NCBI GenBank assembly: GCA_030447725.1
Contig: JAUJOQ010000003.1
Location: 233,508 to 297,507, forward strand
Direction: 5' to 3'
Length of the DNA stretch: 64,000 nt
Source: Thermoleophilaceae bacterium
Lineage (GTDB): Bacteria > Actinomycetota > Thermoleophilia > Solirubrobacterales > Thermoleophilaceae
The notes beneath the pieces are model-generated. The model did no database searches and was not told the DNA's origin. It worked only from the letters and a program-made list of their open reading frames with translations. Each line of letters starts with the position of its first letter. Position 1 is the stretch's first letter. The translations under genes and the position numbers were made by a program. Shown here piece after piece: positions 45,099 to 51,854 of the stretch.

Positions 45099-46748
45099 AT
45101 GAGGTGGTGGGGGTGGGGTCACGACGGCGTTTCGTTCACCCACGAGGACAAGCCGGCTCTCGCGCCCTTCCTGCGACAGCGCATCGACCTCGACGTCACC
45201 CGTGTGACGTCGGTGCCGGTCGCTTTCGAGCACCTGGACATTGCCGAGCCGTCGCTGTCGCCGGCCCTGCAGGCCGCCCTCGAGCAGGCGCTCGGCGGCG
45301 GCCCCGCGTCGACCGACGCTCTCGATCGGGTCGTTCACGCGCGCGGCAAGAGCCTGCGGGACCTTGTCCGGCACCGCCGCGGTGAGCTCGGCCGGCTTCC
45401 CGACGTGGTTGTCCGGCCGGGCGACGAGGACGAGGTGGCGGCCGTCCTGCGCGCGGCGCTCGACGCCGACGCCGTGCTCATCCCCTTCGGCGGCGGCACG
45501 AGCATATCCGGCAGCCTCGAGGCCCCGGCGCGGGAGCGGCGCACGATCGTGTCGCTCGATCTGTCGCGGCTGTCGCGGGTGCTCGCCGTCGACGAGGCGT
45601 CCCGCCTCGCCCGGATCCAGGCCGGCGCGTTCGGTCCGGACCTGGAGCGCCAGCTCAACGCCCGGGGATGGACGCTCGGCCACTTTCCGGACAGCTTCAC
45701 CCACTCGACGCTCGGCGGCTGGATCGCCACGCGCTCGTCGGGCATGCAGTCGGACCGCTACGGCGACATCGGTGACCTGACGCGCGCGGTGCGCGTCGTT
45801 ACGCCCTCGGGGCTGCTAGCCACGCGCCCGGTGCCCAGCACGTCGACCGGTCCAAGCGTACGGGAGATGGTGCTTGGCAGCGAAGGGCGCTTGGGCGTCA
45901 TCACCGAGGCGACCCTGCACGTGCGGCGCGTCCCCGAGCGCCGGATCATCCTCGGCTACCTGTTCCCGACGTGGGCTGACGGCCTCGCGGCCATGCGCGA
46001 CATCGCCGCCGGCGAGGCCGCCCCATCGGTCACTCGCGTGTCCGACGCGAACGAGACGGCATTCTCCTTTGCGACTCGCAAGAAGCCGTCCATCCTCGAC
46101 CGGCTCAAGTCCAGGGCGCTGACCACGTACCTGCGGCGCCGGCACGACTTCGACGTCGAAGCCATGTGCCTCTCCTTCATCGGCTACGAGGGCAGCCCGC
46201 GCCACGTGGCCGCCCAGCGCAAGCTCGTAGGGCGGACCGTCGGTCGCCACGGCGGGGTGTGCATCGGCAGCTCCCCCGGTGAGCTCTACGACCAGAAGAA
46301 GTTCGACACGCCCTACATCCGGGACTTCCTGCTCGACCGCGGCGCTCTCGCCGACGTCTCCGAGACCTCGGCTCCCTGGAGCGCGCTGCCTGAGCTCTAC
46401 GACACCGTCATGGCCGCCGGCCACGGAGCCTTCGACGAGCTGGGGGTCCGGGGCTTCATGATGTGCCACCTGTCGCACTCCTACCACGCGGGTGCGTGCC
46501 TGTACTTCACCTTCGCGTTCAAGCCGTCGGCGCAGGAGGACGGTCTGCGCGAGTACGACCTCGTCAAGTCGGCGATCCAGCAGGCGTTCGTCGACTCCGG
46601 CGCCACGCTGTCGCATCACCACGCGGTGGGGACAGAGCATGCCCGCTGGCTCGAAGAGGACATCTCGGCGCCGGGCGTCGCAATGCTGCACGCGCTCTTC
46701 ACCGGCGTCGATCCGGGCGCCAACCTCAACCCGGGGAAGATCGTGTGA
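45099..46748 (+). CDS. Alkyl-DHAP synthase-like FAD-linked oxidase
   Basis: 549-residue VAO/PCMH-family flavoprotein. It opens MRWWGWGHDG as in bacterial AGPS-like enzymes. The FAD-binding part (about 105-290) shows LPDVVVRPGDEDEVAAVLRAA, IPFGGGTSISGSLE and HFPDSFTHSTLGGWIATRSSGMQS. The C-terminal part ends with SHHHAVGTEHARWL and LDPxGxLNPGK-like GANLNPGKIV; the His triplet corresponds to the active site of alkyl-dihydroxyacetonephosphate synthase, which makes the ether bond of ether lipids. GGAGGA lies 12 nt upstream. Other VAO-family oxidases remain possible. Overlaps the acyltransferase gene. Confidence 0.82.
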   Translation: MRWWGWGHDGVSFTHEDKPALAPFLRQRIDLDVTRVTSVPVAFEHLDIAEPSLSPALQAALEQALGGGPASTDALDRVVHARGKSLRDLVRHRRGELGRLPDVVVRPGDEDEVAAVLRAALDADAVLIPFGGGTSISGSLEAPARERRTIVSLDLSRLSRVLAVDEASRLARIQAGAFGPDLERQLNARGWTLGHFPDSFTHSTLGGWIATRSSGMQSDRYGDIGDLTRAVRVVTPSGLLATRPVPSTSTGPSVREMVLGSEGRLGVITEATLHVRRVPERRIILGYLFPTWADGLAAMRDIAAGEAAPSVTRVSDANETAFSFATRKKPSILDRLKSRALTTYLRRRHDFDVEAMCLSFIGYEGSPRHVAAQRKLVGRTVGRHGGVCIGSSPGELYDQKKFDTPYIRDFLLDRGALADVSETSAPWSALPELYDTVMAAGHGAFDELGVRGFMMCHLSHSYHAGACLYFTFAFKPSAQEDGLREYDLVKSAIQQAFVDSGATLSHHHAVGTEHARWLEEDISAPGVAMLHALFTGVDPGANLNPGKIV

Positions 46749-47509
46749 GACGCGACCGCGGCGGGCTAGACCTGTCCTGGGCACGCAGCGGCGTGGCGGG
46801 CGCGGTGCGCGAGGTCATGCTGAGCGGTCTGCTGGGACCGATCCTCGACCTCTACACCCGCCGGCGGACAATCGGGCGCGAGAACCTCACCGGCCTCGAG
46901 CCTCCCGTCCTCTTCGTCGCGAACCACTCGAGCCACGTGGACACGCCGACCATCCTCCGAGCGCTGCCGCGGGCGTGGCGCCGGTGCACCGCGGTTGCCG
47001 CGGCGGCGGACTACTTCTACCGCGTGCCGTGGATCGCGCGGGTGGTGTCGCTGGCGTTCAACACCGTTCCCGTGTACCGCAACGGAGAGGGAGTCGTGCC
47101 GGATGCCGCGTCGGATCTGGTGCGGCTGATCGACGAGGGGTGGAGCCTGCTCGTCTTTGCCGAGGGCACCCGCTCGCGCGATGGCACCGTCGGCCGCCTG
47201 CGCTCGGGCGCGGCGGTCCTCGCCGCCGAGCACGGCTTGGTGATCGTGCCCGTCTACGTCTCCGGGACGCACGCGGCCATGCCTCCGGGACGCAGGTGGA
47301 TGCACCGCCAGCGGGGGCGCTTCACCGGCGGCCGGCATCCGACCTCGGTCCGCTTCGGTCCGCCGGTCCGCCCCAGGGACGGCGAGCACCGTGTCGAGGT
47401 GATGGAGCGGGTCCGGGTGTTCTTCGAGGCATCGGGCGCCGTCACGACGCCGGATACGCGGATCCTGGCTCGCGGCCGGCGTGCCGCGTCCCGGTCTCCG
47501 GCTCCATAG
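46745..47509 (+). CDS. PlsC-like 1-acylglycerol-phosphate acyltransferase
   Basis: 254 residues from GTG 46745, overlapping the flavoenzyme stop. The acyltransferase motifs are complete: NHSSHVDTP (HX4D), the PVYRNGEG region, and FAEGTRSRDG, followed by VIVPVYVSG. The enzyme would move a fatty acyl group to a glycerolipid precursor. Next to an AGPS-like gene it could supply or use acyl-DHAP/alkyl-glycerol-phosphate. A basic C-terminal tail of 20 residues follows the domain. Confidence 0.88.
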   Translation: MRRDRGGLDLSWARSGVAGAVREVMLSGLLGPILDLYTRRRTIGRENLTGLEPPVLFVANHSSHVDTPTILRALPRAWRRCTAVAAAADYFYRVPWIARVVSLAFNTVPVYRNGEGVVPDAASDLVRLIDEGWSLLVFAEGTRSRDGTVGRLRSGAAVLAAEHGLVIVPVYVSGTHAAMPPGRRWMHRQRGRFTGGRHPTSVRFGPPVRPRDGEHRVEVMERVRVFFEASGAVTTPDTRILARGRRAASRSPAP

Positions 47510-47511
47510 CC

Positions 47512-48525
47512 GTGGCGCGGGTCTTCGTCACGGGTGGGAGCGGCTTCATCGGCGGCGCACTGGTGGCCCGGCTGGTCGACCGTGGCGACGAGGTCGTGGG
47601 GCTCGCGCGCTCCGAGGAGGCAGCGGCGGTGGTTGCGCGGCGCGGGGCCACGGTCGCCCGGGGGGACGTGCTCGACGAGGACAGCCTCGCCGAGGGCATG
47701 GCGGGCTGCTCGCTGGCCTATCACGTCGCCGGGGTCAACTCGCACTGCCCGGCCGACCCCGCCACGCTCCTGCGCGTGAACGTGCAGGGCGCCGAGGCGG
47801 CCGTTCGGGCAGCCGCCCGGGCGGGCGTAGCGCGCCTGGTGCTCACCTCCTCCGCGGCGTCGGTCGGCGAGCCCGCGGGCACGGTCGGCCGCGAGGACAC
47901 AAGGCACCGGGGCTCCTACCTCTCGGTCTACGACCGGTCCAAGCACCACGGCGAGCAGGCGGCGTTCCGGATGGCTGGGAGCCTCGGGGTGGAGGTCGTG
48001 GCCGTCAACCCCTCCTCGGTCCAGGGGCCGGGACGCTCCGCCGGCAACGGAACGATCATCATCGCCTACCTCAACGGCCGGCTGCGGGCCTTCGTGGACA
48101 CCTACGTCAGCGTGGTCGACATCGACGACACCGTGGAGGGCCACCTGCTGGCCGCCGAGCGAGGGTGCAGCGGAGAGCGCTACGTCCTCAACGGCGCGAC
48201 GATCACGTCACGCGAGGCGCTGGACCTCGTATCCGAGTTGTCCGGGGTCGGTGACCGGGTCCACATGCTGCCGCCGGCGCTGGCGCGCTCGGGTGCGGCC
48301 CTGGCCGAGGGCGCCGCACGCGCAAGAGGCCGGGCGTCCTCGATGTGTCGGGCACGGATCCGCACCATCCTGCACGGCCACCGCTACGACGGCTCGCGGG
48401 CGACGCGGGAGCTCGGCTTGACCTACACGCCGACCGCCGACACCTTCCGCCGGACGATCGAATGGGCCGTGGCCGAGGGGCTCGTGACGCGCCCCCTTCC
48501 GGCCCGGGCCAGGGCGGACGCGTGA
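47512..48525 (+). CDS. Extended short-chain dehydrogenase/epimerase
   Basis: 337-residue NAD(P)-dependent extended SDR. The Rossmann loop is VTGGSGFIGGALV, the active site has LTSSAASVG (Ser) and YDRSKHHGE (Tyr-x3-Lys), and NPSSVQGPG follows. It resembles HpnA/dihydroflavonol-reductase/3-beta-HSD-like members; the substrate is not evident. GTG 47512 comes 2 nt after the acyltransferase stop. In a lipid cluster it could reduce a keto group or aldehyde (inference). Its last 134 coding bases also exist as a degenerate copy at 49700. Confidence 0.85.
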   Translation: MARVFVTGGSGFIGGALVARLVDRGDEVVGLARSEEAAAVVARRGATVARGDVLDEDSLAEGMAGCSLAYHVAGVNSHCPADPATLLRVNVQGAEAAVRAAARAGVARLVLTSSAASVGEPAGTVGREDTRHRGSYLSVYDRSKHHGEQAAFRMAGSLGVEVVAVNPSSVQGPGRSAGNGTIIIAYLNGRLRAFVDTYVSVVDIDDTVEGHLLAAERGCSGERYVLNGATITSREALDLVSELSGVGDRVHMLPPALARSGAALAEGAARARGRASSMCRARIRTILHGHRYDGSRATRELGLTYTPTADTFRRTIEWAVAEGLVTRPLPARARADA

Positions 48526-48563
48526 ATGCACGCCTCGGCATGGGCCGGCGCACCTGCGGGCTC
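48392..48563 (+). repeat. Parental copy of duplicated SDR 3' end
   Basis: The final 134 bases of the SDR gene and 38 bases beyond its stop recur at 49700-49870 with scattered substitutions and one missing base. The copy begins at a GCTCG shared by both parental sequences. Confidence 0.85.
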
Positions 48564-49405: not shown

Positions 49406-49462
49406 GAGCGCATCTTGGCACCCCTCTGTCGAGCGGAGGCCGAGGAAGGCGCCTTGCGCCGC

Positions 49463-49704
49463 CGCGCCGCGTGCCGGGCAGCGCGCGGCTTCGCCGTCAG
49501 CTCAGATGGCGAGGGCTGCCTGACGAGCCCCGCGGTACGGACGGCGCTGCTCGCTGTGCCGCGCGAGCGGTTCGTCCCCGAGGTCGCAAACCGCGAGGGA
49601 CTCGAGCGGGTCTACCCCGGACCAGGCGATCGTCACTGCACACGATGAGCGCGGCATCCCGACGAGCTCCTCCTTCCAGCCGTCGATGATGGCCTCGATG
49701 CTCG
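49463..49704 (+). pseudogene. Truncated copy of PCMT-like methyltransferase 5' end
   Basis: Closely matches 50695-50946, the start of the intact PCMT-like gene. Compared with it, an 11-nt loss near 49506 and a 1-nt gain near 49617 break the frame. At 49700-49704 the sequence switches, at a shared GCTCG, into a copy of the SDR 3' end. The methyltransferase core is missing, so it is non-functional. Confidence 0.85.
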
Positions 49705-49870
49705 CGGGCCACGCGGGAGCTCGCCTTGACCTACACGCCGACCGTCACACCTTTCCGCCGGACGATCGAATGGGCGGTGGCCGAGGGGCTGGTGACCCGC
49801 CCCTTCCGGTCCGCGCCCGGGCGGACGTGTGAGTGCAGGCCTCGGGATGGGCCGGCGCACCTGTGGGCTC
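49700..49870 (+). pseudogene. Duplicate of SDR gene 3' end
   Basis: A 171-base copy of 48392-48563. Translation still reads LTYTPT and FRRTIEWAVAEGLVTRP, then one missing base shifts the ending. It is fused downstream of the PCMT fragment. The pair marks the internal junction of an old tandem duplication. Confidence 0.85.
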
Positions 49871-50663: not shown

Positions 50664-51854
50664 GTGCAGCCCACAGCAAGGATGCCCGCCCCGGCGCGCC
50701 GCGTGCCGGGGAGCGCGCGGCTTCGCCGTCAGCTCGTCGAGCAGCTCGAGAGCAACGGCTGCCTGACGAGCCCCGGCGTGCGGAGGGCGTTCCTCGCTGT
50801 GCCGCGCGAGCGCTTCCTGCCAGAGATCTCAAAGCGCGAGGGACTCGAGCGGGTCTATCAGAACCAGGCGATCGTCACGGCGCACGACGAACGCGGCATC
50901 CCCACGAGCTCCTCATCCCAGCCGTCGATGATGGCCTCGATGCTCGAGCAGCTCGACCTGCGCCCAGGGCAGCGGGTGCTCGAGGTCGGCGCCGGCACCG
51001 GCTACAACGCCGCGCTGCTGGCGAAGATCGTCGGCGCACGGGGCCGGGTGATCTCGGTGGAGTTGGACGCTGCCACGGCGCGTGGCGCGCGCCGGGGCCT
51101 CGCGAGCGTCAAGTCTCGGGCGAAGGTGGTGCGAGGTGATGGCCGCGAGGGTTGGCCGCGTCTCGGGCCCTACGACCGCATCATCGTCACCGCCAGCACG
51201 CCGACGGTGACGCGTGCCTGGCACGAACAGCTCTCCGAGGGTGGCCTTCTCGAGCTGCCGCTGGTCCATCGACCGGGCCAGGTTCAGGCGATCGTCACCT
51301 TACGCAAGCAGGCGCAGGCACTGCGCTCAGAGGCCGTGCTGTACGGCGGGTTCATGCCGCTGCGCGACGCCCCCGGGGCTCCGGTGGCGCCGCCGCCTCC
51401 CAGTCTCGGCGCGACCGAGCGGATCGGCGATCAGTCTCGCTCGCTCGCACAGCTGAGCGGGGAGGCGCTTCGCCGCCTCTCGGCGGCGCGAAGGCAGCGG
51501 CTGCTGTCGCTGGCGCTCTCCGAGCCGCGCACCCACGAGCTCGGCCTGCGAGCTCCGCGTCCGGCGCTCAATCTCTACCTGATGATCGAGGCGCCCGAGG
51601 ATCGGCTGGTCGGCGGCTGGGCACGGATAGGGGTGATCGGCGAGAACGGGGACGGGCTCGCGCTGATGGCCGGCGGCGCGAGCACCTTCACCCGCATCGA
51701 GTCCTATGGCGACAGCGACGCCGAGCGCGTGCTGCTGAGCCTGATCGAGGGATGGAAGCAGCGCGGCCGTCCGGCCGGCCACGACCTACGCGTCGAGGTG
51801 GGCTTTCCACCAGGAGCTGCCAGCTCCGATGTCCGCCTGAGCTGGGGGTCCTAG
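50664..51854 (+). CDS. Protein-L-isoaspartate O-methyltransferase-like protein
   Basis: 396 residues. N-terminal 220 residues match PCMT: RRAFLAVPRERFLPE, YQNQAIVTAHDERGIPTSSSSQPSMMASMLEQL, SAM motif I VLEVGAGTGYNAALLA, and DRIIVTASTPTV. PCMTs repair isoaspartyl damage. About 170 extra C-terminal residues form an unrecognised domain with an LYLMIEAPEDRL strand. This long form occurs in some actinobacteria. GTG start fits the TAGCGT box. A broken copy of its 5' end lies 1.2 kb upstream. Confidence 0.85.
   Translation: MQPTARMPAPARRVPGSARLRRQLVEQLESNGCLTSPGVRRAFLAVPRERFLPEISKREGLERVYQNQAIVTAHDERGIPTSSSSQPSMMASMLEQLDLRPGQRVLEVGAGTGYNAALLAKIVGARGRVISVELDAATARGARRGLASVKSRAKVVRGDGREGWPRLGPYDRIIVTASTPTVTRAWHEQLSEGGLLELPLVHRPGQVQAIVTLRKQAQALRSEAVLYGGFMPLRDAPGAPVAPPPPSLGATERIGDQSRSLAQLSGEALRRLSAARRQRLLSLALSEPRTHELGLRAPRPALNLYLMIEAPEDRLVGGWARIGVIGENGDGLALMAGGASTFTRIESYGDSDAERVLLSLIEGWKQRGRPAGHDLRVEVGFPPGAASSDVRLSWGS

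Follow-up and report, generated by a model that had tools for sequence, protein, structure and literature searches.

This report concerns a cluster of three genes in a 64,000-nucleotide stretch of DNA (hereafter the window) from a Thermoleophilaceae bacterium, a soil-type actinobacterium (contig JAUJOQ010000003.1 of assembly GCA_030447725.1, positions 233,508 to 297,507). The window has a G+C content of about 70%, and its assembly is related, judged by locus, to metagenome-assembled genomes (MAGs) of Thermoleophilaceae and Solirubrobacterales. All three genes are on the plus strand. The first (45099..46748) codes for a 549-residue flavoenzyme resembling AGPS, the alkyl-dihydroxyacetone-phosphate (alkyl-DHAP) synthase by which animals make ether-linked membrane lipids; it has an N-terminal MRWWGWG, the domains FAD_binding_4 and FAD-oxidase_C, and LSHHHAVG close to the C terminus. 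The second (46745..47509; 254 residues) begins with a GTG codon that lies within the AGPS stop region, so that the two genes overlap by 4 nucleotides (nt), a start consistent with the N termini of relatives. Its product is a PlsC/LPAAT-type acyltransferase with the motifs NHSSHVD (HX4D) and EGTRS, which matches TIGR00530 at 1e-15, under the cut-off, and PlsC in the PDB (5kym) at 1.5e-8; PF01553 (Acyltransferase; E 1.5e-20) is its only Pfam domain, so there is no fused FAR1-like domain. The third gene (47512..48525; 337 residues) starts 2 nt past the PlsC stop and encodes an extended short-chain dehydrogenase/reductase (SDR) of the 3-beta-HSD/NAD-epimerase type, carrying TGGSGFIGG and YDRSK motifs and the domains PF01370 (Epimerase; E 2.6e-31) and PF01073 (3Beta_HSD; 4e-21), for which we propose a role as acyl/alkyl-DHAP reductase. 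The original prediction, made from the sequence without database searches, had described the MRWWGWG opening, the C-terminal HHH, the 4-nt overlap and the 2-nt gap, and its coordinates and motifs are exact.

A first finding is that the flavoenzyme is an AGPS by all tests of sequence, predicted fold and active-site residues. In a phmmer search of the PDB, the best matches are AGPS from Dictyostelium (2uuu; E 9e-111, 374 bits) and guinea pig (4bby; 3e-91, 310 bits), while hydroxy-acid dehydrogenases, next in the ranking, reach only about E-21, some 90 orders of magnitude behind. With an AlphaFold model built from 34 orthologues (mean predicted local distance difference test score 86, predicted template-modelling score 0.86), Foldseek ranked 37 AGPS chains first, at template-modelling (TM) scores of up to 0.92, followed by D-lactate dehydrogenases at about 0.7; structures of the Tyr578Phe and Arg419His AGPS mutants are among the matches. 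The residues R419, R515, Y578 and H615-617, whose roles are known from guinea pig AGPS, align with R313, R408, Y469 and H506-H507-H508 of the window protein, its catalytic set, and their equivalents are invariant across 101 aligned proteins, bacterial and eukaryotic. A cysteine at C576 is common to the window clade and eukaryotic AGPS, and is serine or alanine in paralogues. In 2-hydroxy-acid dehydrogenases, the positions of Y578 and H616 are metal ligands, and HxGDGNxH / SxEHG is the metal signature. This signature is lost in the window protein, where SYHAGACLY and LSHHHAVG stand instead. Because AGPS residues thus occupy the metal-ligand positions, a dehydrogenase is untenable, and this identity is ruled out by the sequence scores and the fold as well. 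The assignment to the alkyl-DHAP synthase family in the original prediction therefore holds: the structure prediction it called for gave a model nearest AGPS with the catalytic residues kept, and the active site suited to a 2-hydroxy acid that it named as its refutation is contradicted by E-111 and E-91 against E-21 and by TM scores of about 0.9 against 0.7. The same genome codes for a second AGPS-like protein, 38% identical (C1, 503 kb; L046:8176-10787), which keeps the HHH and the tyrosine, has alanine at the conserved cysteine and is followed by an MBL-fold hydrolase.

The second finding is that the cluster is a real unit. Among 121 genomes of the order, 13 (the window included) carry a close AGPS orthologue, 69-77% identical to the window protein at the 12 other loci. 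PlsC adjoins AGPS in 12/13 of these (11/12 without the window), in two of them divergently, and the SDR follows in 8/13 (7/12 without the window); hardly any other gene in the flanks is common to two loci. A phylum-wide draw at a strict threshold gave few matches, and a scan of 84,980 species genomes, from which the best 80 relatives were taken, nearly all of them Actinomycetota, found a PlsC homologue beside AGPS in 68. Where genes were called, PlsC is immediately adjacent in 66/66, upstream in 61 and downstream in five, all five Thermoleophilia. The pairing thus occurs in three arrangements (downstream, divergent and upstream), and PlsC is not beside any of the seven b-type AGPS paralogues examined. 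In a tree made by a quick method, in which the program flagged long branches, the 80 relatives group with the window type in one clade (SH-aLRT 99) separate from the b and c paralogues, with Thermoleophilia as a grade at its base. Since the pairing is kept in several gene orders, the AGPS-PlsC partnership has outlived at least two rearrangements, and chance adjacency is ruled out by the comparison of 12, then 80, related loci. The search of gene neighbourhoods that the original prediction had suggested thus returned a recurrent AGPS-PlsC pair. In the tree, the names or taxonomy of L114, L120 and L135 conflict with their places, as with an "Acidobacteria" MAG among Microbacteriaceae and "Kocuria sp. 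36" among Brevibacterium; these are probably mislabelled or contaminated records. Beside or near b-type paralogues lie genes resembling FAD-dependent glycerol-3-phosphate dehydrogenase (L051:6286-7767 and L053:6368-7963), a likeness judged by eye from the protein start only, whose product would make DHAP. Directly 3' of the trio, the window holds a decayed tandem duplication (49443-49870), which contains remnants of the start of a PCMT-like gene (85-92% identical to 50675-50946) and of the 3' end of the SDR gene (88% identity with 48500-48563).

The relatives also show what else accompanies AGPS. A classical SDR is present in 61 of the best 80 loci, and 47 have a protein in which NAD_binding_4 (male sterility, fatty-acyl reductase, FAR) is fused to a Sterile domain (under cut-off) and a HAD hydrolase. 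This FAR-HAD fusion, found in 18/20 of the relatives' genomes checked, in some of them unlinked to AGPS, would supply the fatty alcohol. By sequence, the relatives' loci appear to hold what the eukaryotic route to ether lipids requires, bar an identified DHAP acyltransferase. The SDR-PlsC-AGPS clusters of Microbacteriaceae, Brevibacterium, Kocuria, Georgenia and others share with the window an orthologous AGPS clade and an adjacent PlsC; they differ in their reversed order, in a classical rather than extended SDR, in a linked FAR-HAD fusion and, sometimes, in a di-iron protein. The last occurs in about a third of the best 80 loci (about 27), with invariant metal ligands, and is absent from the window genome, where it was searched for. 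In L097:149-4079 and matching genes, a pair of ferritin-fold proteins flank the FAR-HAD fusion beside AGPS. One of these has a full di-iron ligand set and an acyl-ACP-desaturase-like model (best fold match 7t63, weak at E 3e-4), which makes the pair a possible candidate modifier of the ether-linked chain. Neither the window genome nor any of 20 relatives matched the CarF/PEDS1 desaturase (PF10520) of the aerobic plasmalogen pathway, in a search whose control genomes were silent too.

Taken together, these results lead us to read the trio as coding for the central enzymes of a eukaryotic-type ether-lipid pathway that is aerobic and based on DHAP, with a probability of roughly three in four. Family membership, active-site residues, fold and conserved linkage are the basis of this reading, and from them we infer which substrates are used, in which order the steps run, where the alcohol comes from and which lipid results. 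A fatty acyl group would be put on DHAP; the AGPS-like enzyme, through a covalent adduct of FAD and DHAP, would swap the acyl group for a long-chain alcohol; the extended SDR would reduce the 2-keto group, giving 1-O-alkyl-glycerol-3-phosphate; and the PlsC-like enzyme would either make the acyl-DHAP substrate or acylate sn-2. The resulting 1-alkyl-2-acyl-phosphatidate would feed normal phospholipid synthesis. The original prediction had likewise joined the three enzymes, with the SDR as reductase, in making an alkyl-acyl glycerol phosphate from acyl-DHAP and a fatty alcohol. This joint role gains from the conserved linkage and from the co-occurrence of the FAR fusion in relatives; it is loosened in that PlsC may form acyl-DHAP instead and that the part of the SDR comes from pathway logic and analogy with Myxococcus.

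The fold, the catalytic residues and the likely chemistry of the flavoenzyme are like those of the peroxisomal AGPS of guinea pig (4bby) and Dictyostelium (2uuu), although identity over the structural alignment is 31-34% and the N terminus of the window protein is shorter. Eukaryotes combine AGPS with GNPAT, FAR1 and an alkyl-DHAP reductase of the DHRS7B class; the window, in contrast, has an extended SDR as its putative reductase and no identified GNPAT-specific homologue. The closest described system is MXAN_1676-1674 of Myxococcus xanthus, which encodes AGPS, a FAR-GNPAT-like (acyltransferase) fusion and an NAD-epimerase family protein (PMC9131029). Compared by published architecture rather than by sequence, both have genes for AGPS, an acyltransferase and an extended-SDR-family protein in one operon in the same listed order, but the Myxococcus acyltransferase forms part of a fusion with a FAR1-like domain, whereas the window PlsC stands alone with no FAR linked. 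Since ElbD provides the main route, disruption of MXAN_1676 causes no more than a slight drop in ether lipids (PMC9131029). Bacteria also make alkyl or alkenyl ether lipids through the elb (ElbD) and PlsA/PlsR/Ger systems, which employ different enzymes; in the anaerobic plasmalogen route of PlsA/PlsR, diacyl lipids already made have their acyl chain reduced. The original prediction had called ether lipids made aerobically in bacteria of this kind poorly described; with a Myxococcus relative on record (PMC9131029), the pathway is less isolated than that implied. AGPS homologues have previously been listed in actinobacterial metagenome bins (PMC11868695), and the literature searched yielded no description of an actinobacterial AGPS cluster.

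In the window genome, the candidate alcohol source is a PRK07201-type or other male-sterility-type reductase, coded away from the trio. The PRK07201 equivalog scores 869 bits against a cut-off of 549, and we take this family to include bacterial fatty-acyl-CoA reductases. NAD_binding_4 is also present in two other proteins, one encoded within a fatty-acid-synthase-like cluster, and a Pfam search of the genome for the Sterile domain gave no match, its control being silent too. The fatty-acid-synthase-like cluster of C4 (L062:7051-13895), which by sequence comprises FabD, FabH, FabG, FabF, a carboxyltransferase and a MaoC-like protein, ends with a fatty-acyl-reductase-like SDR and might provide a special alcohol or acyl chain. 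PF09989 (DUF2229), which presumably marks PlsA-type enzymes, had no match in the window genome, and its controls worked.

Several observations weigh against the pathway as proposed. No SDR stands beside AGPS in 5/13 of the order-level loci (one of which ends at a contig end), and 1/13 is without PlsC. Other actinobacteria have an SDR of another subfamily linked to AGPS, which leaves analogy as the basis for the reductase role. The FAR-HAD fusion was searched for in the window genome and is absent, and the PRK07201 protein is only a candidate fatty-acyl reductase. AGPS is a minor contributor to ether lipids in Myxococcus (PMC9131029). Finally, the stretch examined of the AGPS locus of Kineococcus rubinsiae, discussed below, has no PlsC, and a literature search gave no lipid data for the window organism or its order.

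One alternative, that PlsC plays the part of GNPAT, as a DHAP O-acyltransferase feeding AGPS, with the other PlsC of the genome acting at sn-2, is a serious contender to which we give nearly even odds. To our knowledge, only the making of acyl-DHAP is not covered by ordinary PlsX/PlsY/PlsC synthesis. PlsC is the sole acyltransferase that consistently adjoins AGPS, and one other PlsC homologue only was found in the window genome (C1:967118), which fits a dedicated role of the cluster enzyme; in eukaryotes, moreover, GNPAT and AGPS act as a complex (PMC9131029). On the other hand, the motifs and the best family match (TIGR00530) are of the LPAAT type, which normally acylates sn-2. A second possibility, rather unlikely in our view, is that AGPS and PlsC cooperate without the SDR, which would be an unrelated bystander such as a steroid-type dehydrogenase or a sugar epimerase associated with hopanoids. 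The best curated match of the SDR is indeed HpnA-like (224 bits, under the cut-off of 368), several loci of the order lack it beside AGPS, and at the corresponding place in other actinobacteria stands an SDR of another class. However, the PlsC-SDR junction measures -1 to +2 nt in 7/8 order-level loci with an SDR, the SDR orthologues are 69-76% identical to one another, and Myxococcus too pairs AGPS with an NAD-epimerase-family protein. We think it improbable that the AGPS-like enzyme forms the FAD-DHAP adduct and then couples it not to a fatty alcohol but to some other nucleophile, for example a diol, hydroxy-lipid, thiol or amine, yielding an unusual glycerolipid. The adduct chemistry does not by itself fix the nucleophile, and the window genome has neither a FAR-HAD fusion nor a dedicated fatty-acyl reductase linked to the trio; yet the window AGPS falls in one clade with FAR-linked enzymes, keeps all catalytic residues and shares its genome with three strong male-sterility-type reductases. 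Next to no credence goes to a D-2-hydroxy-acid dehydrogenase or oxidase of the GlcD/D-LDH type with unrelated neighbours, for although the FAD_binding_4/FAD-oxidase_C architecture is common to both families and a weaker, partial similarity to GlcD/D-LDH exists, Y469 and H507 replace the metal-ligand motif, AGPS scores much higher in sequence and fold, and the AGPS-PlsC linkage is conserved.

Published lipid data agree with the ether-lipid reading, in a correlative way. Kineococcus rubinsiae B12 contains anteiso-C15:0 dimethyl acetal, which the authors describing it took as a sign of plasmalogens (PMC7472656), and carries a window-type AGPS and the FAR fusion (locus L078); dimethyl acetals are regular in aerobic Subtercola (PMC5945732). 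In some actinobacteria, the linked di-iron protein, by its modelled desaturase fold, could provide a CarF-independent vinyl-ether step. It is missing from K. rubinsiae, which counts against a general vinyl-ether role, and a link between this protein and dimethyl acetals fails on the same strain. We hold it an even bet that many aerobic actinobacteria, including this Thermoleophilia lineage, have a clustered eukaryote-like DHAP/AGPS pathway (AGPS, PlsC, SDR and FAR-HAD) that accounts for these sporadic acetals.

So far as the literature found shows, aerobic bacterial ether-lipid synthesis is genetically established only in myxobacteria, where AGPS has a minor part. The conserved actinobacterial AGPS-PlsC-SDR unit offers a testable genetic basis for the ether lipids and plasmalogen-like signals of aerobic actinobacteria, with Kineococcus, Frigoribacterium and Brevibacterium as culturable carriers, and its interest lies mainly in being widespread among these bacteria and directly testable. 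Its carriers may, judging from their genes, make ether lipids by an animal-like route, which bears on the origin of the eukaryotic pathway and on the question of which bacteria in soil might be sources of ether-lipid biomarkers.

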